Assembly: GCA_029204225.1 (NCBI GenBank)
Contig: MU831899.1
Coordinates: 33,609-97,608, forward strand
DNA from: Diphasiastrum complanatum
Lineage: Eukaryota; Streptophyta; Lycopodiopsida; Lycopodiales; Lycopodiaceae
Direction: 5' to 3'
DNA: 64,000 nt
Every line of letters begins with the position of its first letter. The stretch's first letter is position 1. The translations under genes and the position numbers were made by a program. Below the pieces are notes generated by a model. That model worked only from the letters and a program-made list of their open reading frames with translations, was not told the DNA's origin and made no database searches. This document shows, piece after piece, positions 3,241 through 44,698 of the stretch.

Positions 3241-3537
3241 TGTAGTGGGTTTCTTTCTTTGCCTAACCTGAATCCAAGATCTAGTCAATCTAGCATCAAA
3301 GAGACAGAGCTGGTTGTCATGCATAGATTCGTTCTCATGAGAGCGATAGTATAGTTCAGATTTCAACATGAATGGAGGATTCACATCTAACTCTAACATC
3401 TATTAACCCTACAATCCATTAACACTACGCATCCACAACAAAGATAGCTTACTCTTCTCTCTCATAAAAAGTATAATAACATGCAATCCCAATAACAATT
3501 AGATCCAACAATTAGCAAAATCCAAAGAAAGCATGTT
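3241..3537 (-). mobile_element. 3' part of a Gyp1 5' LTR
   Basis: Minus-strand LTR fragment ending in CCCACTACA just before the primer site. Its far part (about 3423-3537) matches 62148-62270 of the plus-strand relative. The fragment stops abruptly at about 3537 inside the second intron of the CACTA transposase, so this junction truncates both elements. Confidence 0.65.
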
Positions 3538-3604
3538 TTATGTCTATTTAAATTTCCAATCAATAAATACCAAATAAAAAAACCAAGTACATATAAATAC
3601 CTGA

Positions 3605-4318
3605 CAATGATTGATAGTTTGTATATGGTCTCACAAATATCTTTTGACAAGCACTCGCGAATTGACAATGGATAGATGAATTGAATCATCTTTAGCCAAT
3701 CATGAGATTTGAGACCTTGGAACTTTCCATCCACTGTAAATGATGATCGTAGAGAATGGGCAAAATCAGTTGGTGTTCTAATGCCATGAATAATGGAGCG
3801 CACATGGTTAAGCTCCTCCTTAGTGAATGTCCAAGGTACTTTTGGAGCATGATCTTCACCATCCTTTATCCAATATTCTTTTTTGGTGTTTGATTCTTTT
3901 AGATCGTGCCTTGCAGCAATGGCATCTTTTTCACCAATCAAGTGTTTCCAAATAGATTCACCCACATTTTTAAATATGTGCATGGGATCAAGTAGGTGAT
4001 TAATCAAAAGGTTATTCCAATATTCCAAACGATGAAATATAGATAATCTTTTCATATCATCGATTGGCTTTGCTTGAGATTCCTCCCATAGTATTCGCCA
4101 ATCTTTCACGGACATCCTCTTTGGAGGCATCTCTTTCTCAACTCTTCCTCCAAAACCTCTTCTATGAGTGTCTCTGAATAGATGGCCTTCATGCAAGTAT
4201 TTACGATGATTTTCATAAACTGCTTTTTTGAGACTAAAAAAACATCTTCCCACAAGATTTGGCCCGCACAAAAAACAAGCATTTTTTCTAGCCGTTTGAA
4301 AGCCTGCCCAACAAATAG
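3605..4318 (-). pseudogene. CACTA TNP2 transposase, second conserved exon (CAC1a)
   Basis: Exon of the CACTA transposase downstream of the catalytic region. It begins ICWAGFQTARKNACFLCGPN, the Cys-rich segment, followed by VYENHRKYLHEGHLFR. It then carries MPPKRMSVKDWRILWEES and MKRLSIFHRLEYWNNLLINHLLDPMHIFKNV, both typical of plant TNP2 proteins. Splice signals fit: an acceptor near 4319 and a donor GTATTTA near 3604. It is open throughout, whereas copy 2 has small indels here. The following DUF4218-type exon is missing because the gypsy LTR cuts the element about 70 bases further on. Confidence 0.85.
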
Positions 4319-4477
4319 ATACTATCAATCACTATTAAAAAAATTATATGTCAAAGAATAATTATAGCCATTGTAGTATATCATGTAAATATCAAGAATT
4401 ACTACTTGTATGTAACTGTAAACAAACTCCTATGTACACAAGATAGACATTGTTTGAATGATTACTTGAGCATTCAC

Positions 4478-5215
4478 CTAATCCTGGATAGTCATGCATT
4501 GTCCACATTATAGGGGCATGTAGTGTAAACTCCCTCTCATGTAAGGGGCACGAAATGTCATATGCTTTTATCCCCTTCCACAAGTCTTCCAACTCGTCAA
4601 TAAGTGGCTCAAGATACACATCCATGTTCTTAACCTTGCGTTGGCCAGGAATTAAAAGTGCCAACATAATGTGTCTCTTTTTTGTACTCAACCAAAGAGG
4701 AATATTATAATTTATCAAGCAAACAGGCCAAATGGACCACGTAGTTTCTCGTACATCAAAGGAGTTCACGTCATCTGTTGCAAGACCAAATCTCACATTT
4801 CTTGACTCATTGGCAAAGCTTGGATACTCTTTGTTGATGTGTTTCCATGCAAGTGAATCTGAAGGTACCCTCATCGTCCCATCCGTAGAGGTATGGTGTG
4901 CATGCCAGTCCATATGTTGTATAAGAGATTTACAACAAAATAAACGTTGCAATCGTGGAATTACTAGAACATGTCGTAAAACTTTGCACAGAATGGTTGC
5001 CCCTTGCAAATCATCTCTATATCGAGGAGTATCATGAATGGGACATTTCTTGAGTGATTCGTACCTTCCTTGATATAAAATACAATCTTTTGGACATGCA
5101 TGATATTGCTTGTAGTCCATCCCGATGTTAGACAACGTCTTTCGTGCCTCATCTCTTGTCTCAGGCATGGCATTCCCTTCTGGGAGAATTTTATTTTTCA
5201 ATAGTCTGTACATGA
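4478..5215 (-). pseudogene. CACTA TNP2 transposase, catalytic-core exon (CAC1a)
   Basis: Transposase_21-type core that would bind and cut element ends. In order it has KILPEGNAMPETRDEARKTL, YKQYHACPKDCILY, a Cys pair, RNVRFGLATDDVNSF, MLALLIPGQ, MDVYLEPLIDELEDLWKGI and IMWTMHDYPGLGECS before a splice donor. Family hallmarks such as HACPNDC and the LLIPGP...DVYLxPLIDEL block are clear. The exon is uninterrupted, unlike copy 2 which has two stops. The usual FNPFG motif has become VNSFDV, suggesting decay. An upstream exon near 5300-5700 is damaged, so the whole gene is not functional as it stands. Confidence 0.87.
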
Positions 5216-5299
5216 CAAAAGAAGTCATTGTAAAACAAATATCACTCAATGTCCAAATTGTAAATCTTGTTTCAAAGCAAAAATGACAAGTAGATGAAA

Positions 5300-5720
5300 A
5301 AACTTTTACTCAAATAATGATGTGAGGCTTTGGTCACTCCATCTATATTTGGCTTGAAGATTTAATAGAAGTAGAGAAGTCGCCATACGAGATGTCTTTG
5401 CTCCAAGATACAATGCGGTCTTTGATTCTTCTCGCAATTTCTTTTATTCTTTAGACAAAAGTGCCTCCTCATCTTGTTCATTGTGTCTAGTTGCAATATT
5501 GGTCTCACACATATCATCAAACATGTCTCCCATGACTTCAAATTCATCATTCATTGGAAGATCATTTTCATCATTGGAACTTGTTTACGAAGAAGTAGAT
5601 CTAGATGAGCTAGATTCAGATGCATTAGTCTCTTTATTAATGCGCTCATCAATTTCCATCATCTCTTTTAAACCTTGATGTAGACGACGAGGTAATTGCT
5701 TTATATGTGGACCGTTGTAT
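5300..5720 (-). pseudogene. N-terminal transposase exon (CAC1a), with stop
   Basis: The reading is NDEFEVMGDMFDDM, then NEQDEEALLSKE, a stop, KLREESKTALYLGAKTSRMA and AKYRWSDQSLTSLF. This matches 39514-39924 on the plus strand. The acidic segment followed by LYPGAK-like and WSDxSLTxLF motifs is the usual N-terminal part of TNP2 transposases. The in-frame stop near 5447 and Leu for Pro in the LYPG motif show decay. Confidence 0.75.
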
Positions 5721-6111
5721 TACATTCGTCGTCTACATCGACCATTACAAGGATTATTGTCACCAACACTAAATTAAGATGAAGAATCCTATATATCAAA
5801 ATAGCAAGAAGTAGGTTGAAACAATGCTTGATAAACATTTCCTTCCAATACTTGATAGATCTAGATGTTGCATATGAATATAAATTACCTCTTAGTTTAA
5901 AACGTATGAACATACCAATGTATCTATTAGACAAATTTGTCTTTTCAACTTGTTAACATTCAATGAACTCAAAGACGAATAATGCTCCTAACATTTAATC
6001 TAGGCAAATGATGAATAATGCTCCTAACATGTGACATATTTAATGGCACAAACCAAATACAATCAAGGTGCATGGATTATACGTCTCTACATATCAACAA
6101 AATTTAAATCT
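5721..6111 (-). other. CAC1a spacer, probable intron or leader
   Basis: AT-rich sequence between the SET-like ORF and the transposase N-terminal exon. No gene was recognised. Copy 2 lacks this stretch because a retroelement fragment replaced it. Confidence 0.4.
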
Positions 6112-6819
6112 TCACATTTGACTTATTGTCTTTTGCAAACATTTGGGTAGAAGACGGTTGAAACTATACTTAAAGAACAATTTCTCCCCAAACCTGATAG
6201 ATCTAGTGGCACATACCACTAAATAAGTGCCCTTTACATTCCTAGTAAAATATTCTTCTTTTCCATTGGTGCATTCTTCAAAATCACAATTCGTCAATAG
6301 AGGGTGGCCAATGGAACTATTTATATATGCAGCAATGTTTCCATGCACATTTGGATGTTCATCAATGTATGTACGATTTGCCCTTGAGATGTTGCCTCCT
6401 TGCATGCGTTGCTCCTCTAAAGAACAAGCATTTGAATTCAAGCCATATACTTGCATCCTCCATTGGTGACGACACAAAGCATGCCAATCACCCCAATTGT
6501 ATTGAGGTCCTGCATATGGCATCAATGTCACAACACTATTTAAAGGGACCTCAATACTACTCAATGCAAAAAGGCCCAAACCAGCCTCAGGAAAGTGTTC
6601 AATAGGCATCATGTACATTCGACCCCAATACATAAATGGTGATTGGAGTGGCCAACACGAATATCTACTTCTAATAAAAGTTTTTACTAATGGTTGCAAG
6701 CTAGGTGGAAGAGGAAGGTCAGACAAAGAACCTAGAATGTCTTTTGACACATCAACAGAGCATGTGGTGACATTCTGGAGTAGGATATAATCGTGTGATT
6801 CGGGATTTTTGATTAGCAC
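6112..6819 (-). CDS. SET-domain-like protein carried by the CACTA element
   Basis: Open frame of 235 codons, of which the first 20 or so (above about 6761) are inverted DNA. After a linker (DILGSLSDLPLPPSLQPLVK) it shows SET-fold landmarks. AGLGLFALSSI and VVTLMPYAG match the N-terminal glycine-rich strand. HPNVHGNIAAYINSSIG and LLTNCDFEEC match the NHS pseudoknot region. LVVCATRSIRFGEKLFFKYSF matches the C-terminal GEEL..DY motif. SET proteins normally methylate protein lysines using SAM. Here the catalytic NHS reads NSS and the DY position reads KY, so activity is doubtful. The first half recurs at 38200-38550 in the sister element, so the gene travels with the transposon. It may be a captured host gene or a lineage-specific transposon accessory. 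Confidence 0.6.
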   Translation of the reverse strand: MLIKNPESHDYILLQNVTTCSVDVSKDILGSLSDLPLPPSLQPLVKTFIRSRYSCWPLQSPFMYWGRMYMMPIEHFPEAGLGLFALSSIEVPLNSVVTLMPYAGPQYNWGDWHALCRHQWRMQVYGLNSNACSLEEQRMQGGNISRANRTYIDEHPNVHGNIAAYINSSIGHPLLTNCDFEECTNGKEEYFTRNVKGTYLVVCATRSIRFGEKLFFKYSFNRLLPKCLQKTISQM

Positions 6820-6873
6820 TCTATAATGTTCTCTCTGTTTTTCTCTTCATGTGTGTTTAGGGTCGATGTGGGT

Positions 6874-6912
6874 GGGTGTGTGTGTGCGTGTGTGTGTTTG
6901 TGTGTGTGTTTC
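6874..6912. repeat. TG-rich microsatellite
   Basis: Imperfect (TG)n tract with GTGTGTGTGCGTGTGTG character, shared with 37617-37655 in the sister copy. Confidence 0.85.
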
Positions 6913-6959
6913 ATGCTGCTAGTTTACGATTTGTGTTATATATTAATTTATGTTTCATG

Positions 6960-7103
<144 letters not shown>

Positions 7104-7109
7104 TGATAC

Positions 7110-7470
7110 ATCTAACATTTTCAACTTTTGCAGAAGGAGTACCATAAGTTGGTTCCAAGAAAAAGAGAATATTACTGATAGGATAAACCACATGAATATT
7201 GATTTTGGATCATCATTGGCCCTAGATGATGCTCTTGTTGATGATGACCCCTTGCATTATATAATTAGTTCATCAATGCCTTGTGATTCAATCCATGTCT
7301 CCAAATCTCTAGAACGTTCTTACCACCCAACCACGCCTATCCTAGATATTGCACATGCGTCCTCCACAATACTCCACGTGGATTCCACAAACATGACCAC
7401 CCCTTTAAAAAAGAGAACACGTCTTGGACGTATTATGACTAATTTGAAAGATAATTGCAAATTGGGCTTT
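7110..7470 (+). pseudogene. First exon of the SET-like gene, displaced by inversion
   Basis: After an acceptor-like TTTTGCAG (7126-7133) the frame contains MNIDFGSSLALDDALVDDD, an acidic Ser-rich stretch, PTTPILDIAH and LKKRTRLGRIMTNLKDN. The same peptide sits in frame immediately before the SET region at 37842-38190. Because of the inversion it now lies head-to-head with the SET ORF and cannot be part of it. The function of this acidic N-terminal extension is unknown. Confidence 0.7.

Positions 7471-7584: not shown

Positions 7585-7586
<2 letters not shown>

Positions 7587-7675
<89 letters not shown>
7587..7675. repeat. (CT)n microsatellite
   Basis: Perfect CT array of about 89 bases. It corresponds, in reverse, to the GA array at 37277-37370 of the sister copy, so it was present before the copies separated. 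Confidence 0.97.
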
Positions 7676-8339: not shown

Positions 8340-8540
8340 TTACATCACTATTACAAATAAAAAAATTGTGACATAAATCAATATACATACATGTGATGGA
8401 TCAATAAGCGGTCTACGTCGATTGATGAAAGAGCTTGAAGATGAACCGGTCAATAGTTGTTCATTGTACTTTAGTCTTGCTTGCTCCTTTTTTTTTGTGA
8501 TAGAGCTCAATTCTTTTTTCTTTCTCTTAATCACGTGGAG
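8340..8540 (-). pseudogene. CACTA 5' coding exon 2 (CAC1a)
   Basis: Lys/Arg-rich exon with KEQARLKYNEQLLTGSSSSS, RRRPLID; the homologue at 36427-36590 reads EIIVPPRVLEKEKRIELY before it. In copy 2 it starts after a clean acceptor (GAATTCTAG). The charged, Ser-rich composition could be a nuclear-localisation or linker region. No known domain is recognised. Confidence 0.5.
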
Positions 8541-8667
8541 GTACGATAATTTTCCTAGAATTCATAATTCCAATCAAATGTCATTGTAAGAATAAATTTG
8601 CAAGAAAAATTATACACTCATATTCAAATAACAAATAAAGTGCAATTGATGTCAATATCAATAACAA

Positions 8668-8766
8668 TATATACCCGCTGTTGCGATCATGAGATGAATC
8701 GCTATCTGATGATGATGACATCGTCGTTGACATATACACACTGTAGCCATCTACTCTATACCACAT
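8668..8766 (-). pseudogene. CACTA 5' coding exon 1 (CAC1a)
   Basis: The start MWYRVDGYSVYMSTTMSSSS and the acidic DSDSSHDRNSG are conserved in the sister copy at 36215-36306, where the exon ends at CAG|GTATAT. It is likely the start of the element's main protein. Here the donor position reads CGGGTATAT. Confidence 0.5.
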
Positions 8767-9950
8767 TATAAGTAATCATTATGAGACCGTATGTACTGAA
8801 AAAATATAGTAAAAATTGTTAAAGACATGCCAACATCTAATCCATGTATATTCTACTTATGCTTAATGTAAATCTAATATTCTAGTAACTTTGCTACCAA
8901 GAAAATTGCTTGGGTAGGGCAACACATGATGAGCAATCAAAATGAGGTTCATACTGACAAATGTTAGACATCAGTAGATAGTGCATGCATGCCTATCTCA
9001 ACTAATTTAAAGACCGCATAGCAGTCAATGTTCGAAGCTCTCAGTTTAAACTCTTGTCTAAGATGAGTGATGATCTCACTCGATCTTTCTTTCAAGATGG
9101 AATGATCAGAATCAAACAATCAGTCAATTGATTCATTGCCCACTCAGTCACTCATTTGATTAATTAATACTTGGCTCGAGTTAGTTAAAGATAAATCTCT
9201 TTGGATTGGCCTAGTGTGCCATGGTATCTCATGACGAGCAATATGCATTCGCCCTTTCTATCTATGGTTGCTTTGTATGCAAGAAATCATATACTAGATA
9301 ACACACCATTGATCAACATCTTTATTACAATGCTAAATGATATTTCAACTAATCATTATGATTTCATATAAGGTTATATAGGTCACACACCAACAATTAA
9401 AAAGATTTATCATATAGGTCACATATCACTAAGGTCCTCAATATAACATAAATGCTTTTGATCATGAATCTAAATGACCCCATGCAACCATTTAAGAGGC
9501 CACATGACAAAAGCAAAAAAACATTATTTGACCATGTAATTATGTCATCAAATTATATCAAATCTATGACACCTAGATTATTGATAAACTAAATATTTTA
9601 TGACATCACCGATTTGACATAATATTATGTCATAAAATCTTAAAAAACTTGTCAAATTACTTGTTTAATAATAATATGTACTATTTCTTATCTCATGATT
9701 TTGTCTTGTATGTCAAATCTCAGGAAAAATAAAATTTATAACAATATAAAACTAAATACTACCATAATGGCCTTTGAATTGATTTTTTTACATTCCGTCA
9801 TATTAAAAAAAATATTTTATGTAAAATCCTACAATAAAATATTCTCATAAAATCTAGAAAAGATTATGAGAATATTGAATGACATTTGAAGCATGAAAGC
9901 CCATGTGGAGGACCCTCTCACGTGCCAAGAGAGGGAAAAAAATAACTCAT
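8767..9950. other. CACTA 5' region and AT-rich flank, no gene
   Basis: From 8767 to about 9489 the sequence matches 35684-36211 in reverse complement (non-coding 5' part of the transposon). From 9490 to 9950 it is AT-rich, with no recognised coding, terminal repeat or other structure. Confidence 0.5.
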
Positions 9951-10015
9951 GGAACATCCACGCGTGGATATCGCGTGGATAACTTCTGCGTGGATAATCC
10001 ACGCGAAACTTGAAT
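9951..10015. repeat. Palindromic GCGTGGAT/ATCCACGC repeat cluster 1
   Basis: Holds ATCCACGCGTGGAT, a further GCGTGGAT unit and GCGTGGATAATCCACGC. These are self-complementary words of the same kind as those at 29911-30323 and 44281-44650. The function is unknown. Confidence 0.85.
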
Positions 10016-12745: not shown

Positions 12746-14105
12746 CTTGGAGCTTGCTTTAATCCATATAAACTTTTGAAGAGCAAGCAAACTTTTCCTT
12801 CATCATGGATGAACCCAATAGGTTGGTCCATATAGATCTCTTCTTCTAGATAGCCATTTAGAAATGCATTAGAAACATCTAGTTGAAGAATTTGCCAATT
12901 GAAAAAACAAGCAAGAGAAATTATGATTCTAATTGACACCATTTTTGCAACTCGGACAAAGGTCTCCTCATAATCAAGTCCATAAACTTGAGAAAAGCCT
13001 TTAGCACAAAGCCTTGCCTTATACTTATTGATTGTGCCATCTTGATTATACTTGACTCGAAAAACCCATTTGCAACCAATGGTATGCTTGTTGGATGGAA
13101 GATCCACAAGCTGCCATGTATTATTGGCCATCAAAGCATCATATTCCTCCTTCACGGCAAGGTACCATTCCTTTGAGTGGATAGCATCATATACATCCTT
13201 CGGCTCCTCATGAGAAATAAAATAGGCACAATTAGTGGAGTTGATTTTTTGCTTTCCTCTACCTTCATAGGTAAGCCTTCTAGGCTCGGATCTTTCTCTT
13301 TGGGATCTCCTTGGTGAAAAAATTCGAGGTGACTCCTCCTCAAATATCGGCCCCATATCTCCATGATGATCTTCAAGGGTGATGATTGGAGTATCTTTGT
13401 GAGAATCTTTGAACTCGGCCTTCTCAAGAATGTATGTTTGATCTTCATGGAATATCACATCTCTACTCTCAATTGTAGTTGAGATAGAGGGGACATAGAT
13501 CCTGTAAGCTTTCTTGTTGGATGCATATCCAACCATGATCCCTTTAACAGAATTATGATCATCTCTTTTCCTTGTTTCCAAGGGCATATTAACAAAGCAA
13601 GTACAATCAAAAACTCTAGGGTGATCTACCTTAGGTTTCTTCTGAAAAAAGACTTCAAAAGGTGTTTTTCCAGCAAGAGCATTGTGAGGTAATCTATTGC
13701 ACAATTTATAGCTTCACCCCAATATTCAATAGGCAAAGAAGCTACTACTCAAATTGCTTTAGCACATTCACATAAAGATCTGTTTTTCCTCTCAGCTACT
13801 CCATTTTGGGATGGAGAATAGGCACAAGAAAATTCTCTCTTTATGCCTTCACCTTCACAATAATTATGAAACTTGTTGGAAATATATTCACCTCCTCCAT
13901 CGCATCTTAAAGCTTTAACTTTGCAAGAAAACTGTTTTTCTACATAAGCTTTGAAGATAAGAAAGTGATAAAAAACCATAGTCTTTGAAGAAAGTAGATA
14001 CAACCAAGTGTATCTAGTAAAGTCATCAATAAAGGTGACAAAACATGTTGCACCACCAATACTTTGAGAAGAGAAAAAATGTACATTTGAATGTATGAGT
14101 TCCAA
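12742..14105 (-). pseudogene. Cop1-a integrase and reverse transcriptase
   Basis: Integrase core lies at 13749-14105 with FVTFIDDFTRYTWLYLL, LRCDGGGEY and YSPSQNGVAERKNRSL. It continues at 12742-13704 with the integrase tail (PFEVFFQKKPKVDHPRVF) and RT palm start WQLVDLPSNKHTIGCKWVF, KARLCAKGFSQVYGLDYEET, DVSNAFLNGYLEEEIYMDQP and LYGLKQAPR. This integrase-before-RT order defines Ty1/copia. The break near 13705-13748 includes an in-frame stop. The usual FAPVAK reads FVRVAK, which suggests degeneration. Confidence 0.9.
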
Positions 14106-14132
14106 TGGATAAGTAGTCTTTATAAAAGACTT

Positions 14133-17545: not shown

Positions 17546-18180
17546 TGACTCGTAGTTAGTATCCATAGCTATGCTACAGTTGCTTGCATATTACTATACA
17601 CAACATACATTTCTTGTAGTACACTGAAGATCGATTGATTGACAACAAAAGAGCATAGACATCTTGAAGACATAGAAGAAATGTACCTGCTCACATTGTT
17701 GCAGAAAAACAAATGTGTCGCTTTGATCTGTCCAAAGCTTGGTGGAGTTAATGGAAAAATAACCACTCTCATCTTTCCTGACAGTTGCATTGAGACCATT
17801 GCAAATAGCTTTGAACCATTTGACATCAAATATGAAAAAGCTGAATTGCGTAAATCCAACTTCGAGGATGTCATTGATTATCCCACAATAATCAAGCTGA
17901 GAAGAGAGTAAATTGTGCCATGCTTACTCGAATCTCTTGGATGAAATTGCCATGACTCCACAATCGTACGTGTTTTTATTTTTGTCAATGTGCTCTATAC
18001 AAAAGTGTCATCCATGCGTCCATAGTGCATTGTATTTTTTGTAATGAACAAAATGGAACTAAATGTGTTAGGGATACAACAAACATGTACAAAATTGCAT
18101 GTATTAATAAACATGTGAAGGTTGATCATCATAGCTTACATGTAAATCTCGCTCACTCTTTGTTACTTCTTGGTTGTTTG
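17546..18180 (+). other. Unassigned region with a small plus-strand ORF (17639-17911)
   Basis: A 90-codon plus-strand frame (MTTKEHRHLEDIEEMYLL, KCVALICPKLGGVNGKIT, IANSFEPFDIKYEKAEL, ending IIKLRRE) has balanced, protein-like composition but no recognised family. It sits between two exons of a minus-strand CACTA relic. It may be captured host sequence or chance. The rest shows nothing clear. Confidence 0.3.
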
Positions 18181-18480
18181 CCAAGGCTTCTCTAAGTGCA
18201 TCACACAGCCAATCAAGCGTCATGTCCTTGGGTAGAAGGGCAAGGTAGGTGGGTATAGTTGTCTTCTTTGCCCTCTCCTGAAAGTGGCTCGAGCGGTTTG
18301 TCTACGGGCCTTGGCCTCTTCGTATAGAGAAATCCACTTTTGCATTTCCTTGCTATTAAGAATGCAAAACTTATTTGAAGCACAAACTGCATGCAGCATC
18401 GGGTCCAAAAGATGGTTTATCAACAATTTTCTCCAATATGGGAGTTCATGAAATATTGATAACCTCTTCATGCCGGGAGG
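18181..18480 (-). pseudogene. CACTA TNP2 fragment with internal deletion (CAC2)
   Basis: MKRLSIFHELPYWRKLLINHLLDPM matches the CAC1 transposase, but the next residues jump to a region that in CAC1 lies about 300 residues further on (KWISLYEEAKARRQ, then MTLDWLCDALREAL). An internal deletion has removed the DUF4218-type part. Confidence 0.75.
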
Positions 18481-18599
18481 GAGTTGCCCTAGATCTTGAT
18501 TGGATCTTCAAATTCGAAGCCAATCACTTGCCTACAATATTAACAAACAAGCACACACATTTAATGCAGATTATATATCGTTAGAAGAAACATAAAGAG

Positions 18600-18810
18600 A
18601 GTAATCATAAAATAAATAAATGACATGTACCATTAATTGGCCCAAATATGTATTGTACTTTCATGGAATGAGGACGTTGGCCAACAAGCCCATCATGCAT
18701 AGGGTGATCGGGTTGAAGGTATCGAGTGTGGCCCTCATAAACCATCTTTCGCAGATGTTGTGAGTGACGTGCTTGCAAATACTCGCCACAAACGAGATAC
18801 ACATTGTAAC
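18600..18810 (-). pseudogene. CACTA TNP2 fragment, Cys-region exon (CAC2)
   Basis: VCGEYLQARHSQHLRKMVYEGHTRYLQPDHPMH corresponds to the CGPN...LKKxVYxxHRRxLxxxHPFR segment of plant TNP2 proteins. It is flanked by AT-rich, probably intronic sequence on both sides. Confidence 0.65.
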
Positions 18811-18959
18811 CACTAGTTTATAGCCCTACATTGTTACAAAACAGCCAACTTAATCATAAGTCCAATGTTTGAATTGAAAGAAAATTTGTGAATGCACATA
18901 AAATTTAATATAATACAAACCAATAGCAAGGATATCTCACCTAAATATTTTCCATAGCC

Positions 18960-19680
18960 AGGAAAGTCGTACATCATCCACATCAAGATCCCCTTTACCA
19001 CAAAATCTTTTTATCTCAGTGGTCTTGATATATCGCTCACTTGAACTCCTTGCCATAGAATCTTTAGCTCATCTATCCAGGGAGCCATATGCACGTCCAT
19101 ATTTTTTGCCTTATATTTTCTGGGAATAAGAAGGACGAGCATTAGATGCCCCTTCTTTATACTTAGCCAAGGGGGGGATGTTGTAGTTTACAAGGACAAC
19201 CGACCAAGTGGACCATGATGTGGAGCGCAAACCGAATGGATTCACACCATCCATGGCCAACCCCAAATGAAAATGGCGAAGCTCATCCCTAAACTCATGC
19301 CAGGTAACATCCATGTGCTTCCATGATGGAGAATCGGCAGAGATCCTCATAGTATCGTCAGATGAACAATTGCTTGAATGCCATGTAATTATCTTCGCGA
19401 TGAAATTACACTTAAACATGTGGCGTATCCTGGGTATGATGGGAAAATGTCTTACCACCTTGGCGGGTATCGTGCTCCTTGTAAATCTTGCCTGTAGCGA
19501 TGTTCCCCACAACATGGACACGTACTTGCCTCCTCAAACTCATCTCGATATAAGATGCAATCATTGGGACATGCATGGATGCTCTTGTAATCCATGTCGA
19601 CCGCGAATAGCATTTTCTTAAATAAGGAAGATATGATGAGGCAAAGGCTTCCTTGCAAACTGTTTCAGCTAGCCTGCAAA
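18960..19680 (-). pseudogene. CACTA TNP2 catalytic-core exon (CAC2)
   Basis: Core reads across frames as MDYKSIHACPNDCILYRDEF, CPCCGEHRYRQDLQG, VVRHFPIIPRIRHMF, DDTMRISADSPSWKHMD, RHFHLGLAMDGVNPFGLRS and WSVVLVNYNIPP, then a Tyr-Lys-Glu frame break and PSYSQKI. It is more diverged from the consensus than CAC1, and at least three frame changes are needed. The element lacks recognisable terminal repeats. Confidence 0.8.
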
Positions 19681-20645: not shown

Positions 20646-21839
20646 GGTAGATTCTAAAACATTGGACCTTAACTTAGATGTAAATGTCTATGAGGCTGGC
20701 CTTCATTTCTAGTTCCATTATATACAAGTTTCATGAAAACACCTGCACTTAAAAAAACCATGGACAATTTTCAAAAGGGCTGGCCGTAATGCGTGGGATT
20801 TTGGAAAAGCACGCATTGTCTCAATCACATCTACAACATAAATCAAAAGATGGTTTTGTTATTTGCGAACATCATCTCTCACTCAACATGCATAAACGTG
20901 AATTCTTCAAAACTATAAACACACAACTTATAGACACGTGTATTTCTGAAGTTTCAAGATCCACACTCTACAAGATATGGAAACATGTCAAGACTCCAAC
21001 AAGACAAATAATGTCCAAATGCAAAATATGTGACGACCTTAAAAATGCAATAAAGACAACTCTTGATGCTAGGATGCGTGATCAATATATTGCATTGAGA
21101 GATCGTCATCTACATCATGTTTTCGATTCTAGAAAATTGTATGCATATTGGAAAGAAAGTCAAGATCCCATCCTGAGTAGTCTTTGTGGCTTATCAGTGA
21201 TGGAATGGATCAAAATACAACAACATTACATCGTTTCAATAAGACTCCTACCAGATTAGAGGGCTATCGATTTTTAAAAACACATGTTTGTGGGATATTG
21301 GTTCATGGATCTAAGTTGCTCTGTGTTGTTTGGATTGATACCTTGCATGCTCGTGATAACAATCAAATTGCCACATCAATAATGCGAGCAATAAGAAAGG
21401 TACAATCTTATGTATCAAAGCTAACAATTATTGGAGGGAGAACAAGAACAAATTTATTTTTGGTCTTTGTTGATGTTAGTGGCACATAACATCTTCCAAA
21501 AGGTAGAAATGGGATTTCCTTTGTTTGGCCACACACGTGAAGATATACATCAGGTTTTCAGTGTCATATCCAAGGCTTTGAAGTCCAAATCAGCTCATAC
21601 AATGCCAGAAATGGTAGCACGAATTGATGAAAAGATAGGTGGCAGTTGTATCGAGAGCACTGAAGTAGAAATACTGGAACAAATGGTAGATTGTAAATAG
21701 TTTATAGATCCTTGTATTGCTCAAGGAAATGACGGCTTAGAAGGACACACCAATTCTCACTATTTTTGTTTTTAAATGATGAATGGTGAGCCAACCATGC
21801 AATGGAAATACTATTTGAATGATGGAGACAACGCATGGA
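20646..21839 (+). pseudogene. DUF7869-like transposase-type gene, copy 1
   Basis: Broken gene in three frames. It has MRGILEKHALSQ, a Cys/His stretch ICEHHLSLNMHKREF and STLYKIWKHVKTPTR, followed by a CxxC-type KCKICDDLKNA and an R-rich helix. The core has SDGMDQNTTTLHRFNK, THVCGILVHG, WRENKNKFIFG (read at about 21430-21465) and FPLFGHTREDIHQVFSVIS. The DGMDQ, HG, ENKN and GHTxEDIDxxFS series is how I know DUF7869-type proteins, transposase-like genes widespread in seed-free plants and animals. Their activity is unproven. The second copy lies 1.7 kb downstream with nearly identical lesions. Confidence 0.6.
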
Positions 21840-22351: not shown

Positions 22352-24101
22352 GGTAAATTCTAAAACATTGAACCTTAACTTAGATGTAAATGTCTATGAG
22401 GCTGGCCTTCATTTCTAGTTCCATTATATACAAGTTTCATGAAAACACCGGCACATTAAAAAAACATGGACAATCTTCAAAAGGGCTGGCCGTAATGCGT
22501 GGGATTTTGGAAAAGCACGCGTTGTCTCAATCACATCTACAACATAAATCAAAAGATGGTGTTGTTATTTGCGAACATCATCTCTCACTCAACATGCATA
22601 AACGTGAATTTCTTCAAAACTATAAACACACAACTTATAGACACATGTATTTCTGAAGTTTCAAGATCCACATTCTACAAGATATGGAAACATGTCAAGA
22701 CTCCAACAAGACAAATAATGTCCAAATGCAAAATATGTGACGACCTTAAAAATGCAATAAAGACAACTCTTGATGCTAGGATGCGTGATCAATACATTGC
22801 ATTGAGAGATCGTCATCTACATCATGTTTTCGATTCTAGAAAATTGTATGCATATTGGAAAGAAAGTCAAGATCCCATCCTGAGTAGTCTTTGTGGCTTA
22901 TCAGTGATGGAATGGATCAAAATACAACAACATTACATCGTTTCAATAAGACTCCTACCAGATTAGAGGGCTATCGATTTTTAAAAACACATGTTTGTGG
23001 GATATTGGTTCATGGATCTAAGTTGCTCTGTGTTGTTTGGATTGATACCTTGCATGCTCGTGATAACAATCAAATTGCCACATCAATAATGCAAGCAATA
23101 AGAAAGGTAAAATCTTATGTATCAAAGCTAACAATTATTGGAGGGAGAACAAGAACAAATTTATTTTTGGTGTTTGTTGATGTTAGTGGCACATAACATC
23201 TTCCAAAAGGTAGAAATGGGATTTCCTTTGTTTGGCCACACACGTGAAGATATAGATCAGGTTTTTAGTGTCATATCCAAGGCTTTGAAGTCCAAATCAG
23301 CTCATACAATGCCAGATATGGTAGCACGAATTGATGAGAAGATAGGTGGCAGTTGTATCGAGAGCACTGAAGTAGAAATACTGGAACAAATGGTAGACTG
23401 GAAATAATTTATAGATCCTTGTATGCTGAAGAAATGACGGCTTAGAAGGACACACCAATTCGCACTATTTTTGTTTTTAAATGATGAATGGTGAGCCAAC
23501 CATGCAATGGAAATACTATTCGAATGATGGAGACAACGCATGGAGTGACCCTTTTAAACTATTGCAATGTGTACTTTCAAAAGATGAAGTCATCTTTCTA
23601 GCATCCATGAAAGATCTGGATCTAGATGAAATGAAAGGAATAATGTCCTTTATTGATTATTTGCGGTTCATGAGCCAGAAGTTTCCAGAATACAAGGATC
23701 ACAATGATGCATGTGTGGTTGAAACCACAAAACTTTTCAAATATCTTTCCAAACAAAAGATTGTATCAGGATCAATGTATAGCCAAGAGGCTTTTTGGCC
23801 ACAATCCTTGCCAACCACTTTCGATTCATCTGTATTAACTTCGATCAATGAGGTCGAAATGGATGTAGAGTTATTACCCTAGAGGGTTTGTGGGTGAAAA
23901 GTTGATGCACCTATGGTCGAATTCATCCCACGTAGAGAAGTTGTGTTGGACAAGTTCGTTGCAATGCGGCCTCTAGATGAAAATGTTGGGGAGGGTTCCA
24001 TACCTATTTGGGTGGGAAAAGTTGTTGAGGTGCAGAAAAACTCAGAAGGTTTGGCCACAGAGTTTAAAGCATTATGTTACAAACCAAAATCTAACCAATG
24101 A
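22352..24101 (+). pseudogene. DUF7869-like transposase-type gene, copy 2 with C-terminal part
   Basis: Repeats copy 1 over 22352-23545 with roughly 2-3 percent differences (hand comparison). One extra T near 22611 breaks the frame where copy 1 is open, and FGHTREDIDQVF keeps the expected Asp. Beyond 23545 it runs on alone: SDPFKLLQCVLSKDEVIFL, a long helical region and EAFWPQSLP. A damaged junction follows, then VLDKFVAMRPLDENVGEGS and PIWVGKVVEV, a C-terminal block often seen in this group. Copy 1 lacks this C-terminus because it stops at 21839. Neither copy can make the full protein. Confidence 0.6.
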
Positions 24102-29028: not shown

Positions 29029-29910
29029 GTGAATTTGGGAGCACAAAATACATGTACCAATGCCCAACTTGGGCTTTCATTTATTGAATGAAAGACTGTA
29101 TACACAAATTTTTATTAAAGTTTATTTGAAGCTATTGTTCTCCCACAATGGTGATTGTTGTAGGGAGATCTTTGCAGCAAATTATCAGTTCCTATCTTTT
29201 TCGCATATGTGACATGACAAATATTAGTGAATGTGCAGTTGTAAATGATGACATTTTTAATTATTTTGTTCTATTTTGAAATGGCAATAAACATAAAGTA
29301 CTTACGAGTCTTCCGTTGATGATAAATTTGAAATATGCTGGTAGATTGGTTTGCAATAGCATGAGCTATGTTCTTTTAAAATCAAGCTTCCAATGCTCTT
29401 CCACCTCAACCATAGTCAAATATTCCTCATTGTATATGATGCTTATTTCCATTTGGTTTGTGTGGCCATTTAGTTCAAAGTCTTGATCCAGTGGTAGCCA
29501 TGTACCTTCAATTTTCTTGTATCTCTTGGTAGCTAAATGTGAGACTGAGCATTTGCTTTTTGATATGATAACAGAAGATCATTGAAGACTTTTTAATCCT
29601 GCATTCTATGTCATTATTTGTTTTACTATCCCAGCCTTGATCCATGAGATCTAACAAAGTCTCATCTTAGGTGAACAATTTTTGAGCCTGTGCTTATCTT
29701 CATAGCATTTCTAATATCAATGAGTAGCTTGCATCTCAAGGATTCGGAAACAATACTGTCAGGAGTAGGCCACTCATCACTTTGAAAACTAGGCAATGGA
29801 ATTGCTTCGAGCTTGCCAAAACCTCCATCTGTTTGTGGCGTATATAACACAAGAACACATATAACAAATATCCACGCACAATACAAAGGAGAACGTGCGG
29901 GCAAAAAAAA
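29029..29910 (-). other. Unassigned; protein-like minus-strand frame at 29662-29835
   Basis: The minus strand reads GGFGKLEAIPLPSFQSDEWP, then SIVSESLRCKLLIDIRNAMK, a stop, and a continuing readable frame DETLLDLMDQGWDSK. Composition is protein-like but no family is recognised. Remaining sequence shows nothing. Confidence 0.3.
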
Positions 29911-36211: not shown

Positions 36212-36600
36212 ATGATGTGGTATAGAGTAGCTGGCTACAATGTGTATATGTCATCGACGATGTCATCATCATCAGATAGCGATTCATCTCATGATCGCAA
36301 CAACAGGTATATATTGTTATTGATATTGACATCAATTGCACTTTATTTGTTATTTGAATATGAGTGTATGATTTTTCTTGCAAATTTATTCTTACAATGA
36401 CATTTGATTGGAATTATGAATTCTAGGGAAATTATCGTACCTCCACGTGTTTTAGAGAAAGAAAAAAGAATTGAGCTCTATCATAGAAAAAAGGAGCAAT
36501 CAAGACTAAAGTACAATGAACAACTATTGACTGGTTCATCTTCAAGCTCTTCCATCAGTCGACGTAGACTGCCTATTGATCTATCACGTGCATGTATATT
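36212..36600 (+). pseudogene. CACTA 5' coding exons 1 and 2 (CAC1b)
   Basis: Exon 1 (36212-36306) has MWYRVAGYNVYMSS, then an acidic Ser-rich stretch, and ends CAG|GTATAT. Exon 2 starts at 36427 after GAATTCTAG and reads EIIVPPRVLEKEKRIELYHR, SRLKYNEQLLTGSSSSS and RRRLPIDLS. The two join in frame. No known domain. The homologous exons in CAC1a are at 8340-8766. Confidence 0.5.
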
Positions 36601-37272: not shown

Positions 37273-37372
<100 letters not shown>

Positions 37373-37704: not shown

Positions 37705-37806
<102 letters not shown>

Positions 37807-37828
37807 AACATTTTCAACTTTTGTAGAA

Positions 37829-38550
37829 GAAAGACCATAAGTTGGTTTCAAGAAAAAGAGTTGCAAGAGAGATCGAGAATATTATTGATAGGATAAATCA
37901 CATGAATATTGATTTTGGATCATCATTGGCCCTAGATGATGCTCTTGTTGATGATGACCCCTTGCATGATATAATTAGTTCATCAATGCCTTGTAATTCA
38001 ATCCATGTCTCCAAATCTCTAGAACGTTCTTACCACCCAACCACACCTATCCTAGATGTTGCACATGAGTCCTCCACGATACTCCACGTGGATTCCACAA
38101 ACTTGACCACCTCTTTAAAAAAGAGAACACGTCTTGGACATATTATGACTAGTTTGAAAGATAATTGCAAATTACTATGCACTGTTGATGTGTCAAAAGA
38201 CATTCTAGGTCCTTTGTCTGACCTTCCTCTTCCACCTAGCTTGCAACCATTAGTAAAAACTTTTATTAGAAGTAGATATTCGTGCTGGCCACTCCAATCA
38301 CCATTACCATCAAATGGAACACCATTTACGGATTGGGAACACTTTCTTGAGGCTGGTTTGGGCCTTTTTGCATTGAGTAGTATTGAGGTCCCTTTAAATA
38401 GTGTTGTGACATTGATGCCATATGCAGGACCTCAATACAATTGGGGTGATTGGCATGCTTTGTGTCGTCACCAATGGAGGATGCAAGTATATGGCTTGAA
38501 TTCAAATGCTTGTTCTTTAGAGGAACAACGCATGCAAGGAGGCAACATCT
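37829..38550 (+). pseudogene. SET-like gene, N-terminal half (CAC1b)
   Basis: One open frame joins the acidic exon MNIDFGSSLALDDALVDDD, LKKRTRLGHIMTSLKDNCKL and TVDVSKDILGPLSDLPLPP to the SET start AGLGLFALSSI, VVTLMPYAG and MQVYGLNSNACSLEEQRM. It is cut at about 38550 just before the catalytic region. The continuity of the N-terminal exon with the SET part shows how the gene was arranged before the CAC1a inversion. The FTDWEHFLEAGLG context differs slightly from CAC1a (MMPIEHFPEAGLG). Confidence 0.65.
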
Positions 38551-39513
38551 TGTGGAAAAAGTACAAAAAGGACCAAGAGTGGATCCTAATCTCAAGAGGG
38601 ATTGGTTGTCAGATTACTTGATCTAACAATCTACTGGAGATTAAGATCAATCTAGATCAATTCTAGACACAAAATCCTAACAAGAACAATCATTAATTGA
38701 AGGTAAGTGTACTTTATGGTTTCACACGTGTGAAACACAGTCTGAGTACGGACTCCAACCTGAAAATCAAGTACACATTGATAGAACCTCAAAACAATCA
38801 AAACAAATGTAGACAAATGGAGAGAATCACTCAAAATTGCTTCCAAAACCAAGATTGGTGTCTCACATTGATTATGGCCAAATGTGGCTCTATATATACA
38901 ATAAGTGGGAGGTCGTGGTACTAATCATCCATTTGATCCCACATGTGTGAAGGTGCTTTGTCATATGATGATTCATCATGCAAAACTGACACTTGGACAA
39001 AACCTTCTAATTTGAGCACTTTTGGTCCATTTTCCTTCTATATGGAGATCTACTTGAAAATCTTCTAGAATTCAAAATTCGCCTACTTCAGCTTATTCCA
39101 CAAGTGTGAGCTGTCCTCTACACATGGGATATGACACCTAACCAAAATATTTGGCTCATGCAATCAATAGATTGATGCCATGTGTCATATATCTAGAAAA
39201 GTAGTTTTTGGCCTTTTTAGCCACTAGAACTTGAATTAAATCATATGTCCACCTATATGATTATGGTACATGACAAGTACACTATTTTCACACGTGGGAA
39301 CAGGCTCCACACATGTGTTTTTATCTATATACAAGATTTTTGGCCTCTACCAAGCTTATTTTTGCATTTTTCACACTCCTCCTCAAAAATCTAGCTTGGT
39401 AAATGTAGCTTGATGGAAAACATGATGATCTTGAACTTGACTCCATGGGCTTAATTGGTCTTTGTTGGTTCAAAAGGTTTGAAGATCAGCCAATGAGCTT
39501 AATGTTGATCTGC
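38551..39513 (-). mobile_element. Inserted copia fragment (LTR-like) in CAC1b
   Basis: This block has no match in CAC1a and replaces about 0.7 kb of it. The minus strand contains the polypurine-like TTTTTGAGGAGGAG followed by TGTGAAAAATGC at about 39372, the same arrangement as the Cop1 3' LTR start. The left 0.8 kb would be LTR and the right 140 bases the pol tail. The left LTR edge and target duplication were not resolved. Confidence 0.5.
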
Positions 39514-40768
39514 CATACAGTGGTCCACGTATAAAGCAATTACCTGTCGTCTACGTCAAGGCTTAAAAGAGATGATGTAAATTGATGAGCGCATTAATCA
39601 AGAGACTAATGCATCTAAATCTAGCTCATCTAGATCTACGTCTTCGCAAACAAGTTCCAACGATGAAAATGAGCTTTCAATGAATGATGAATTTGAAGTC
39701 ATGGAAGACATGTTGGATGATATGTACGAGAACAATATTGTAGCTAGACACAATGAACAAGATGAGGAGGCACTTTTGTCTAACGGAGAAAGAAAATTGC
39801 GAGAAGAATCAAAGACCGCATTGTATCCTGGAGCAAAGACATCTCGTTTGGCTACTTCTCTACTTCTATTAGATCTTCAAGCCAAATATAGATGGAGTGA
39901 CCAAAGCCTCACATCATTATTTGAGTAAAAAAAATGTCATCTACTTGTCATTTTTGCTTTGAAACAAAATTTACAATTTGGACATCAAGTGATATCTTTT
40001 TTACAATGACTTCTTTTGTCATGTACAGACTATTGAAAACCAAAATTCTCCCAGAAGGGAATGTCATGCCTGAGACAAGAGATGAGGCACGAAAGATGTT
40101 GACTAACATCGGGATGGACTAAAAGCAATATCATGCATGTCCAAAAGATTGTATTTTATATCGAGGAAGGTACGAATCACTCAAGAAATGTCCCATTTGT
40201 GATACTCCTCGATATAGAGATGATTTGCAAGGGGCAACCATTCCGTGCAAAGTTTTACGACATTTTTCAGTAATTCCACGATTGCAACGTTTATTTCGTT
40301 GTAAATCTCTTGCACAACTTATGGACTAGCACGCACACCATACCTTTACGAATGGGATGATGAGGGTACCATCAAATTCACCTGCATGGAAACACATCAA
40401 CAAAGAGTATCCAAGCTTTGTCAATGAGTCCAAAAATGTGAGATTTGGTCTTGCAACAAATGGTGTGAACCCCTTTGGTGTACGAACAACTACGTGGTCC
40501 ATTTGGCCTATTTGCTTGGTAAATTAAGATATTCCTCCTTGGTTGAGTACAAAAGAGAGACACATTATGTTGGCACTTTTAATTCCTGGCCAACGCAAGT
40601 TTAAGAACATGGATGTGTATCTTGAGCCGCTTATTGACGAGTTGGAGGATTTGTGGAAGGGGATAAAAGCATATGACATTTCGTGCCCCTTACATGAGAG
40701 GGAGTTTACACTACATGCCATTGTAATGTGGACAATGCATGACTATCCAGGATTAGGTGAATGCTCAG
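39514..40768 (+). pseudogene. CACTA TNP2 transposase, N-terminal and core exons (CAC1b)
   Basis: Exon to 39924 (donor GTAAAA) has DEFEVMEDMLDDM, TALYPGAKTSRLA and AKYRWSDQSLTSLF. Exon 40029-40768 has KTKILPEGNVMPETRDEARK, HACPKDCILYRGRY, CPICDTPRYRDDLQG, RFGLATNGVNPFGVRT, MLALLIPGQ, MDVYLEPLIDELEDLWKGI and WTMHDYPGLGECS. Two nonsense changes are visible against CAC1a: TAA at 40120 (Tyr codon in CAC1a) and TAG near 40327 (Trp codon in CAC1a). The NPFG motif is intact here. Together with the following exons this covers nearly the whole TNP2 protein. Confidence 0.87.
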
Positions 40769-40912
40769 GTAATCATTCAAACAATGTCTATCTTGTGTAC
40801 ATAGGAGTTTGTTTACGGTTACATACAACTAGTAATTCTTGACATTTACAAGATATACTACAATGGCCATAATTATTCTTTGACATATACTTTTTTTAAT
40901 AGTGATTGATAG

Positions 40913-41889
40913 TATCCATTTGTTGGGCAAACTTTCAAACGGCTGGAAAAAATGCTTGTTTTTTGTGCGAGCCAAATCTTGTGAGAAGACACTCTTTTAG
41001 TCTCAAAAAAGTGGTTTATGAAAATTATTGTAATACTTGCATGAAGGCCATCCATTCAGAGACACTCATAGAAGAGGTTTTAGAAGAAGAGTTGAGAGAG
41101 AGATGCTTCCAAAGATGATGTCTGTGAAAGATTGGCGAATACGATGGGAGGAATCTCAAGCAAAGCCAATCGATGAAAAGATTATCTATATTTCATCATT
41201 TGGAATATTGGAATAACCTTTTGATTAATCACCTACTTGATCCCATGCACATATTTAAAAATGTGGGTGAATCTATTTGGAAACACTTGATTGGTGAAAA
41301 AGATATCATTGCTGCAAGGCCTGATCTAAAAGAATCAAACATCAAAAAGGAATATTGGATAAAGGATGGTGAAGATCATGCTCCAAAAGTACCTTGGACA
41401 TTCACTATGGAGGAGCTTAACCATGTGCGCTCCATTATTCATGACATTAGAACACCAACTGGTTTTGCCCATTCTCTACGGTCATTATTCACAGTGGATG
41501 GAAAGTTGCAAGGTCTCAAATCTCATGATTGGCTAAAGATGATTCAATTCATCTATCCATTGTCAATTCATGGGTCCTTGTCAAAAGATATTTGTGAGAA
41601 CATATACAAACTATCAATCATTGTTAGGTATTTACATGTACTTGGTGCATTTTTCTATTTAGTACTTATTGATTGGAAATTCAAATAGACATAAAATGGA
41701 TTGAATATGTTGCAGACGAATGTGTTCAAAAGAAATCCATGAGCTGGATCTTCGCAAGAGACATGAGGATATGGTGGAGATTGTGTGCATGTTTGAGAGA
41801 TATTTTTCGACTTCCATCATGGACTCACAAGTGCATTTATTGGTGCACTTGGTTGAAGAAGTTTCTATTGCTGGTCCAGTGCACACTAG
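40913..41889 (+). pseudogene. CACTA TNP2 transposase, middle exons (CAC1b)
   Basis: Exon 40913-41627 has ICWANFQTAGKNACFLC, two single-base shifts near 41115-41170, then MKRLSIFHHLEYWNNLLINH and HGSLSKDICENIYKLSIIV. Exon 41716-41889 has RKRHEDMVEIVCMFERYFST and MDSQVHLLVHLVEEVSIAGP, the start of the DUF4218-type domain usual downstream of the TNP2 core. Splice sites TTGCAG| and CTAG|GTATAA fit. These exons are partly or wholly absent from CAC1a. Confidence 0.83.
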
Positions 41890-41994
41890 GTATAAGTGCA
41901 TAAATTATCTTTTGCATGTGTATTTAGACTAAATCAATTGATACATGAACTCATTAAATAAAACACTTATTTTTAACCATTTGTGACTTTTTAG

Positions 41995-43410
41995 GTGGAT
42001 GTTCTTTATGGAAAGGTACATGAAAGTCTTAAAAGATTTTGTGCATCACAAGACAAGGCTTGAAGGTAGCATGTCAGAGGGATGGTTAGTACATGAATCT
42101 CTCTTTTATGTTACTGAAATTTTGCACCAACTACATCCATCTGCTCCACTATTGTGGCGTGATGAGGAAGCGGAAGAGGTAACTAGTGAAAAACCTCAAG
42201 GGATGGGAAAGGTCCATAGGTTGGCACCCTTCCAACAAGAAAAAATTTCTACATTCATGTTTTATAATTGTGGAGTTATGGATAAATGGTTAGACCTATA
42301 TGAAGAAGAAAAAAAAAAGAGGGCCTTGTCTAGAAAGCGCCAACGACGGAATAAAGGTAGACACATGGCCTCAAGTTCACATGATCTTGAGTCATTGCCC
42401 AAGCAATGCACTATAGAGTGGATGCATGACACACTACAAAAAGCAACAAAAGAGGGACAAAAAATATCAAACGCAGAATGGGACTTTGCAAGAGGATGCG
42501 AATGGAAGGTATTATTCTTTAGATACTTTATTATTAGAACATTCTTGTTTATAACAATATCTGTTTAATCATTTTGAAACACCATGTTCATTCACAATGA
42601 TTATTTATGAGATTCATGTTTGTCATGTGGCAGTGCAAAATGTATAATGCTATATGGGTTTTTGGTTTCCACTTTTGTGTTGAAAGGATTGATAACAAGA
42701 GATGCACACACGATTGTGGTGTAATAGCATCTTTCCAACAAGAAAGTCAAAGCAGTGCACGAGATCGGAATCCCATCTCAGGAGATATAGAATACGTAGG
42801 AACTATACAAAATATTTATGATGTGTCATTTGGTGAAAGTGGACACTATTTTATATTTTATGTGAAATGGTTCAAGGTATTGTCGAGGGCCAAATGCAAT
42901 CGTAAAATCGGATCCAAGTGGATTTTTTGTGATTGATTCATCAAAAACATTGAGCATGGAGTCCTTTGACACATTGGTGTTGCCTCGTCACTGTGAGCAG
43001 GTGCACATGCTATGCTATAATGTTTTTCATTTTATTGCAAGTGACTTCAGTATTTGAGTTTTCGATATGTTCTAAAATAGTGATTTTTGTAGGTGTTTTT
43101 TCAACCAGATCGACTAAACAAGATATGGTAGTTTGTAGCTCAAGTTGAACCACATTCACGACGAGTATTTGAGGGTGCAAATGTTGAGAATGAAATAAAA
43201 AACCTTCATTTTAACTATGAGATTGAGCTACCTAGAGATGTAACAAATCGTCAAACCATACTTGAAGCACCCACTTCCATAGATGTTGAGAATAGAAATT
43301 CTAATAGTCATGATGATGAAATAATTTTTGAAAGTGAGAGTGATGATGAAAATCATCTAAGAAATTGCAAGATGTTGTCGCTGATGAAATTGATTATTGT
43401 AATTCTGAAT
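41995..43410 (+). pseudogene. CACTA TNP2 transposase, C-terminal exons (CAC1b)
   Basis: Exon 41995-42508 has WMFFMERYMKVLKDFVHHKT, the DUF4218 continuation, and IEWMHDTLQKATKEGQKISN. Exon 42634-42876 has SGDIEYVGTIQNIYDVSFG and YFIFYVKWFKV, the DUF4216-type segment. A one-base shift then gives YCRGPNAIVKSDPSGFFVID up to 43000. The last exon from 43093 has VFFQPDRLNKIW, a stop, and QVEPHSRRVFEGANVENEIK with an acidic tail. The domain order is that of complete plant TNP2 proteins. Confidence 0.82.
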
Positions 43411-44280: not shown

Positions 44281-44650
44281 CAAAAAAAATACGTGGATAA
44301 TCCACACAGAAGATATCCACACGTGGATATCTTTAACTTCCAGTCTCGTTCGGTGAACAAACTGAAATCTGCGTTGATTATCCATGCCAAGATTGCTTTT
44401 TGGCGCTGCCAACCTCCCCTCCCAAACAGTTGCCAAAATTTTCAAAATTCAATTTTGCGTGGATTATCCACGCTTGGATAATCCACGTGCATAAATTTTT
44501 TGGCGCCGTGTCAGAAAAACACCGGTAGACTGGCCGAAGGCATGTTTAAAAACAATTTGACGTGGATAATTCACGTGTGGATGTTCCACGCAAACAAAAT
44601 TTCGGAAAATCGACTAAGCGTCGGGTCTCGCATGGATACTCTGCGTGGAT
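44281..44650. repeat. Palindromic GCGTGGAT/ATCCACGC repeat cluster 3
   Basis: Contains CGTGGATAATCCACA, ATCCACACGTGGATAT, GCGTGGATTATCCACGC joined to TTGGATAATCCACGTG, CGTGGATAATTCACGTG and ATGTTCCACGC. It shares with cluster 2 the order of A-rich lead-in, palindromes, and unique 60-120-base spacers containing GGCGC or GGCCG words. It ends about 50 bases before a copia protease frame. Confidence 0.88.
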
Positions 44651-44698
44651 AAATATAGAGTTTTCTAGTTGTGAAAGGCAAATGTTGCATAGTCATCC

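Follow-up and report, generated by a model that had tools for sequence, protein, structure and literature searches.

Transposon-borne chromatin modifiers bear on how mobile DNA evades silencing. TET/JBP genes are known from fungal EnSpm elements, among others, and a SET open reading frame (ORF) from a Helitron-Helentron intermediate, whose host is probably Phytophthora. In this rolling-circle element, the SET ORF lies beside the Rep/Helicase gene, matches SET with an E-value of 3.42e-24, has conserved co-factor sites and is 50% similar to Clr4 (PMC4067079). SET histone methyltransferase genes have also been described in the HarbingerS and MuDR families of Phytophthora (Kojima and Jurka 2014, cited in PMC12730594). 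For plants, the VANC proteins of the VANDAL elements of Arabidopsis, which are of MuDR type, induce the loss of silent marks and bind noncoding repeats sequence-specifically, and the abstract on VANC mentions no SET domain (PMC10398659). In SETMAR/Metnase, a SET domain has likewise been joined to transposon biology.

CACTA elements are known to carry host-derived exons. For instance, Pack-CACTA and Tgm-Express elements are non-autonomous CACTA elements that contain gene fragments (PMC1947982, PMC13317346). Jozin of Chenopodium and other angiosperm CACTA elements combine Transposase_21 with DUF4218 and carry TAD, DUF4216 and sometimes Transposase_24 or Peptidase_C48; in the main text of that domain comparison the term “SET domain” occurs 0 times (PMC8978399).

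Here, we describe CACTA transposons of one family that harbor a SET-like gene in a 64,000-nt stretch of the Diphasiastrum complanatum genome (the window). Like the HarbingerS and MuDR families, the copies in the window are DNA transposons with an incorporated SET-like gene; by contrast, those families, as described in the citing paper (PMC12730594), belong to other superfamilies and to oomycete hosts. The SET match in the window (8.2e-5) is far weaker than that of the Helitron-Helentron intermediate and its motif residues are changed. With VANDAL elements, this family would share the arrangement of a plant DNA transposon with an accessory protein acting on silent chromatin. With Pack-CACTA and Tgm-Express, it shares the CACTA type and the presumably host-derived exons, except that a near-complete gene lies beside tnp2; with Jozin and its angiosperm relatives, it shares Transposase_21 together with DUF4218. 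Searches of the open-licence transposon literature yielded no CACTA element with a SET gene. Thus, SET genes in DNA transposons are already known, and our comparison suggests that a CACTA element with a SET-like gene is new among the literature found.

Results

Two CACTA copies share a gene order. Copy A lies on the minus strand and extends from about 10.0 kb down to 3536, and copy B, which is on the plus strand, spans from 35681, where its match to copy A ends, to about 44650, the position of its last subterminal repeat. In both, a SET-like 5' gene is followed by tnp2. The tnp2 side comprises the following features:

3536..5720, minus strand: tnp2 region of copy A, with Transposase_21; 93.1% identical over 2189 bp to 39515-41696 of copy B
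39515..41696, plus strand: tnp2 region of copy B, with Transposase_21 and three in-frame stops in the stretch 39925-40842
41987..42568, plus strand: ORF of copy B with DUF4218 (1.8e-8)

Transposase_21, the profile of CACTA tnp2, matched at 6.5e-48 and 2.8e-8 in copy A and at 2.4e-24 in copy B, and DUF4218 is a usual domain of plant CACTA transposases. DUF4216 was not detected in the copy B frame 42601-42936, and copy A is cut off before this part; the frames scanned from this window contained neither TAD nor DUF4216. Toward the 5' end, the copies are 92.6% identical over 379 bp in the N-terminal half of the SET domain (SET-N), and 90.0% identical over 1576 bp and 92.9% over 294 bp in the 5' region. 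Both copies are dead.

The match of copy A with copy B stops at 3536, where another repeat starts; 3415-3535 and 1767-2307 match parts of 62148-63052. On weak grounds, this abutting repeat might be taken for a retroelement, since the frame 62580-62978 matches Retrotrans_gag at 0.004, below the cut-off. Retroelement frames, at least partly of Copia type, also occur around the CACTA copies at 13749-14132, 44693-45175 and 48021-49517 (rve; Pol_BBD; Retrotran_gag_2). The window also has a third CACTA transposase, an older relic at 17804-19619 of the minus strand (Transposase_21, 9.1e-20); its pieces are 35-53% identical to copies A and B, with one 25-residue piece at 84%. The SET ORF of copy A has no match beside this relic, whose 5' side seems truncated. 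Elsewhere in the window, two frames in direct orientation, 20753-21489 and 22496-23196, look almost the same by eye (MSKCKICDDLKNAIKTTLDARMRDQY...), and 51985-52647 and 54912-55397 look by eye like exons of a host plastid-targeted membrane protein; the frames 20753-21489, 51985-52647 and 54912-55397 gave no Pfam match at 0.01.

Subterminal repeats of one palindrome family mark one end of each copy:

9950..10005, unstranded: 5' subterminal repeats of copy A, with GTGGATAATCCAC at 9990 and the related TGGAACATCCACGCG at 9950; also found at the 3' end of copy B and at 29.9-30.3 kb
44291..44650, unstranded: 3' subterminal repeats of copy B, of the palindrome family common to the 5' end of copy A

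With up to two mismatches, the palindrome GTGGATWATCCAC has 14 sites in the window compared to 1.18 (sd 1.05, largest 4) in 100 shuffles. One of these sites is at the 5' end of copy A (9990), six are at the 3' end of copy B (44293-44589) and seven are at 29931-30322. All three places also show the related TGGATGTTCCA or its reverse, with up to one change. Subterminal repeats seem to enclose the SET-like gene on its 5' and 3' sides, an arrangement that is a composite of the two copies, each of which shows one end only. No pair of CACTA/CACTG termini with a 3-bp target duplication emerged when the sites of CACTA then C/G in the window were listed and their flanks compared by eye, a search in which the 3' end of copy A and the 5' end of copy B are cut off. 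Thus, the initial annotation of a CACTA family holds by virtue of the transposase, with Transposase_21 beside the SET-like gene in both copies, while complete CACTA ends and a target-site duplication were not found. A dense palindrome cluster at 29870-30325, with 7 of the 14 sites and no transposase match found beside it, might represent a non-autonomous family member or one end of a different element.

The SET-like frame of copy A is the minus-strand ORF 6112-6846 of 244 codons. In a search against 24,736 models, this ORF matched Pfam SET (PF00856) with an E-value of 8.2e-5 and 23.4 bits, that is, 1.0 bit above the curated cut-off of 22.4; its 190-residue core alone gave 5.7e-5 and 23.9 bits. 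None of three controls (two shuffles and one reversed protein) matched SET, and one had an unrelated weak match at 0.15. The features are:

6166..6393, minus strand: match to Pfam SET PF00856, residues 152-227 of the ORF
6313..6321, minus strand: NSS at the NHS position, codons AAT AGT TCC
6166..6171, minus strand: KY at the DY position with the Tyr kept, codons AAG TAT

The profile search that had been proposed as a check therefore recovers SET, and the motif order also reads as annotated: GLGLFA, PYAG, INSS (GNIAAYINSSIG) and GEKLFFKY (ATRSIRFGEKLFFKY) follow each other in the order that fits SET. Of the motifs by which SET domains are generally known (G-x-G, Y-x-G, NHS and a terminal Tyr), copy A keeps G-x-G, Y-x-G, the Asn of NHS and the last Tyr. 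The residues of active SET lysine methyltransferases (NHS, D-Y) are absent and NSS and KY are present instead. Both replacements that had been annotated, NHS to NSS and DY to KY, can be read in the codons of copy A, with the refinement that the terminal Tyr is kept and only the Asp is changed in the second. These readings support a CACTA family that carries a SET-like gene with motif residues off consensus.

A profile made from two SUV39-type SET domains (SUV39H2/EHMT1) did not recognize the copy A domain, which scored 4.8 bits; the best five of 2000 shuffles scored 8.3, 7.0, 6.5, 5.4 and 4.7 bits. A search of PDB sequences returned no SET and one unrelated weak match (E 0.91). Because the Pfam match goes together with the failure of the SUV39-type profile and the lack of SET among PDB sequences, the domain is, as judged by these comparisons, a divergent SET domain that is not SUV39-type. 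Two single-sequence AlphaFold2 models of the protein had mean pLDDT values of 32.6 and 31.0 and are no-confidence models. NCBIfam had no match for two proteins, and PHROGs had two weak matches (0.084, 0.3), neither bearing on SET. A tblastn search found no relatives in viral contigs (1 pattern-matched stretch) or in bacterial/archaeal genomes (45 stretches), a result with little bearing on plants.

The margin of 1.0 bit, the failure of the narrower profile and of the PDB search, and the fold that was not obtained could mean that the resemblance is due to chance and the ORF is not a SET domain at all. Against this, E-values of 5.7e-5 to 8.2e-5 were reached among 24,736 models with 0 of 3 controls matching SET, and four motif blocks occur in order, two of which (GLGLFA and PYAG) fall outside the profile-matched stretches. 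We consider a chance resemblance very improbable. Frames of this length were also not seen by chance: 0 of 2000 mononucleotide shuffles of the copy A region gave a 244-codon frame, and 0 of 2000 of the 950-nt region of copy B gave a 264-codon frame.

The SET-like ORF is, by comparison of the copies, the end of a broken gene. The gene probably consists of three predicted exons and sits immediately upstream of the Transposase_21 gene, whose direction it shares:

8675..8733, minus strand: predicted exon 1 of copy A, with the predicted ATG at 8733, followed by a GT donor; aligned to 36248-36306 of copy B
8391..8554, minus strand: predicted exon 2 of copy A, interrupted by a TAA stop in frame and by one inserted nucleotide; followed by the donor GTATGT
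6758..7463, plus strand: segment of copy A inverted relative to copy B, 86.3% identical to 37503-38173 of copy B, in the orientation opposite to its flanks
6112..6763, minus strand: 3' part of exon 3 of copy A, with the SET domain and the stop; the genuine part of ORF 6112-6846
36248..36306, plus strand: predicted exon 1 of copy B, Ser-rich, starting with the predicted ATG at 36248
36427..36589, plus strand: predicted exon 2 of copy B, open; donor GC where copy A has GT
37827..38550, plus strand: exon 3 of copy B to the end of the copy A match, with the N-terminal part and the SET-N half; TTTTGTAG just before
38551..39514, plus strand: stretch of copy B unlike copy A, 964 bp that replace the SET core and the gap to tnp2

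We take the orientation of the inverted segment in copy B as the original one because it gives a splice site and an open frame. In copy A, a (GA)n tract lies in this segment, as does, from about 7134, the 5' half of exon 3 with its 17-nt deletion. Thus, the copy A gene is broken by an inversion, an in-frame stop and indels. The ORF that had been annotated as the gene is genuine in its 3' part, while its residues 1-28 stem from the inverted segment and the gene is longer than the ORF. In copy B, exons 1 and 2 together have 222 nt if exon 2 ends at the donor position of copy A (GTATGT), and they are in frame with exon 3; the joined predicted exons read MSSTMSSSSDSDSSHDRNN... via KKDHKLVSRKRVAREIEN... 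into the SET-N half with no stop. The predicted protein has ~400 residues, with a Ser-rich, basic N-terminal part followed by the SET domain.

The copy B frames alone had no match to a SET profile, and we assign them to the SET-like gene based on their match with copy A. Of the annotated claim that two copies carry the same SET-like region, the common SET-N half (6763-6387 in copy A, 38177-38550 in copy B) stands, while copy B lacks the SET core. Because copy B leaves the copy A match at 38550, NSS and KY are known from copy A alone, and the annotated occurrence of altered catalytic residues in two copies is not borne out. By eye, the 964 bp of copy B look like the start of a Copia-type element; only 36 bp of them match the 11.6-kb region (83%, E 0.001). 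The predicted second intron has two long (GA)n tracts in both copies (6962-7101 and 7585-7675 in copy A; 37277-37370 and 37708-37801 in copy B), one of which in copy A was inverted along with the 0.7-kb segment.

About 400 nt separate the SET stop at 6112 from the downstream tnp2-side match at 5720, which is on the same strand, and splicing past this stop might join the SET part to tnp2, compare SETMAR. SETMAR is a chimeric SET-Hsmar1 protein, whereas the SET-like gene and tnp2 are two separate frames inside a CACTA element. We regard such a fusion as very improbable.

The altered residues appear to be old. Neither the step from His to Ser (AGT) nor that from Asp to Lys (AAG) is possible with fewer than two base changes, for which we estimate a probability of about 1e-4 at half of the divergence between copies A and B, a rough figure that assumes equal rates. 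In addition, a relic of the C-terminal end of the SET domain (SET-C) has the same AAG:

5807..5864, minus strand: diverged second copy of the SET-C end, 58 bp, 78% identical, downstream of the SET stop

This relic was found as a DNA match with an E-value of 1e-9, and 0 of 200 shuffles reached 45 bits; searching at the protein level gave no match for it. The Asp position of the relic is occupied by Lys (AAG) and the Tyr position by His (CAT). The base changes and the shared AAG suggest that NSS and KY are unlikely to have arisen by decay after insertion, although the His of the relic and the negative protein-level search weigh against this.

With regard to catalysis, SAM in MLL3 is hydrogen-bonded by the NH-motif Asn, while MLL5, in which the NH motif is RR (RRS), has no activity, and for PRDM4, with RKA at the NHS position, no activity is reported in that source (PMC5094779). 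MLL5 and PRDM4 lose the Asn itself, whereas copy A keeps it; therefore, a loss of SAM binding cannot be assumed. The kept Asn and last Tyr would be compatible with NSS/KY being a working variant of the SET active site that methylates lysines of histones or of the transposase. However, the His and the Asp are replaced, and the precedents of MLL5 and PRDM4 point the same way even though both have lost the Asn, so that we consider an active enzyme quite improbable. Rather than a standard enzyme, a protein with weak, altered or no methyltransferase activity is to be expected from the replaced His and Asp, despite the kept SAM-contacting Asn and last Tyr. A role as a non-catalytic reader or decoy, as annotated, is possible.

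The divergence between the copies is neutral in both genes. Between copies A and B, the N-terminal part of exon 3 has dN 0.049 and dS 0.058, and the SET-N part has dN 0.076 and dS 0.067 with an 11-codon patch and 0.011 and 0.028 without it. Neutral dN/dS, combined with only these two copies in the genome, had been named in advance as an outcome that would tell against the SET-like gene; the pooled SET-like gene without the patch is indeed neutral (w 0.69, p 0.42), but tnp2 is equally so (w 0.96, p 0.90; further estimates 1.13 and 0.80). Since neutrality is just as apparent in the transposase, which selection must have maintained at some time, the test is without power: the neutral divergence reflects the decay of dead copies, and dN/dS decides nothing at this locus.

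Outside the patch, the SET-N part has 5 differences in 339 sites compared to 21.9 expected at the tnp2 rate (P 1.6e-5). Selection as the sole cause of this low divergence was rejected because synonymous divergence is low too (0.028). The pattern rather points to gene conversion between the copies, which would fit better. The patch itself (38301-38342 in copy B, 6595-6639 in copy A) is almost wholly different between the copies, in frame in both and bordered by near-identical flanks; by eye, the version in copy A is more like the first strand of SET. Neither version has a full second copy in the window.

Discussion

Based on the data reported here, we lean toward a model in which the SET-like gene is an accessory gene of this CACTA family with catalysis probably altered or lost, a reading to which we give somewhat better than even chances. 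In this model, the CACTA family would have acquired the SET gene from a host and would have kept it as an accessory gene. The SET-like protein would be made together with the transposase, would reach the nucleus and would act on the chromatin of the element. This action would, in turn, ease or tune host silencing of the element. Several lines of evidence argue for this model: the SET match above the cut-off that is absent in 3 of 3 controls, the same gene order in both copies, the phase-compatible predicted exons, the excess of the subterminal palindrome, the low likelihood of NSS and KY being post-insertion decay, and the precedent of other DNA transposons that carry SET genes (PMC12730594, PMC4067079). 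Other observations speak against it. There is no sign of selection on the SET-like gene, whose w resembles that of tnp2; the window has two copies only, of which copy B has neither the SET core nor a SET profile match; the SET score exceeds its cut-off narrowly, and the SUV39-type profile and the PDB search are without SET; and the relic has His in place of the Tyr and is absent from the protein-level search.

The same lack of visible selection fits passive capture, in which a host SET gene or fragment was picked up in the manner of Pack-CACTA or Tgm-Express and was amplified unused. Such capture is documented for plant CACTA elements (PMC1947982, PMC13317346, PMC8978399), and in the account of Jozin and its relatives, captured fragments are found in the 5' region, external to the coding sequence, and have been suggested to serve as camouflage (PMC8978399). 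However, the unit in the window would amount to nearly a whole gene, which runs the same way as the transposase and has an ATG of its own, a stop and two predicted introns. Moreover, the elements in the window also hold a transposase, whereas Pack-TYPE elements are described as non-autonomous (PMC8903248). We therefore regard passive capture as a serious possibility, albeit on the unlikely side.

Returning to an accessory gene, a more far-reaching version of this model is that the regular second gene of this CACTA lineage beside tnp2 is a SET-derived reader or decoy, remade with NSS and KY, that would counter silencing and would have arisen independently of VANC and of the SET transposons of oomycetes. 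This version is unlikely at present. If an accessory SET-like gene is confirmed, the transposons known to carry SET genes would come to include the CACTA type found in plants. Such an element would also amount to a natural experiment on whether a transposon can make use of a SET fold that lacks the standard motif.
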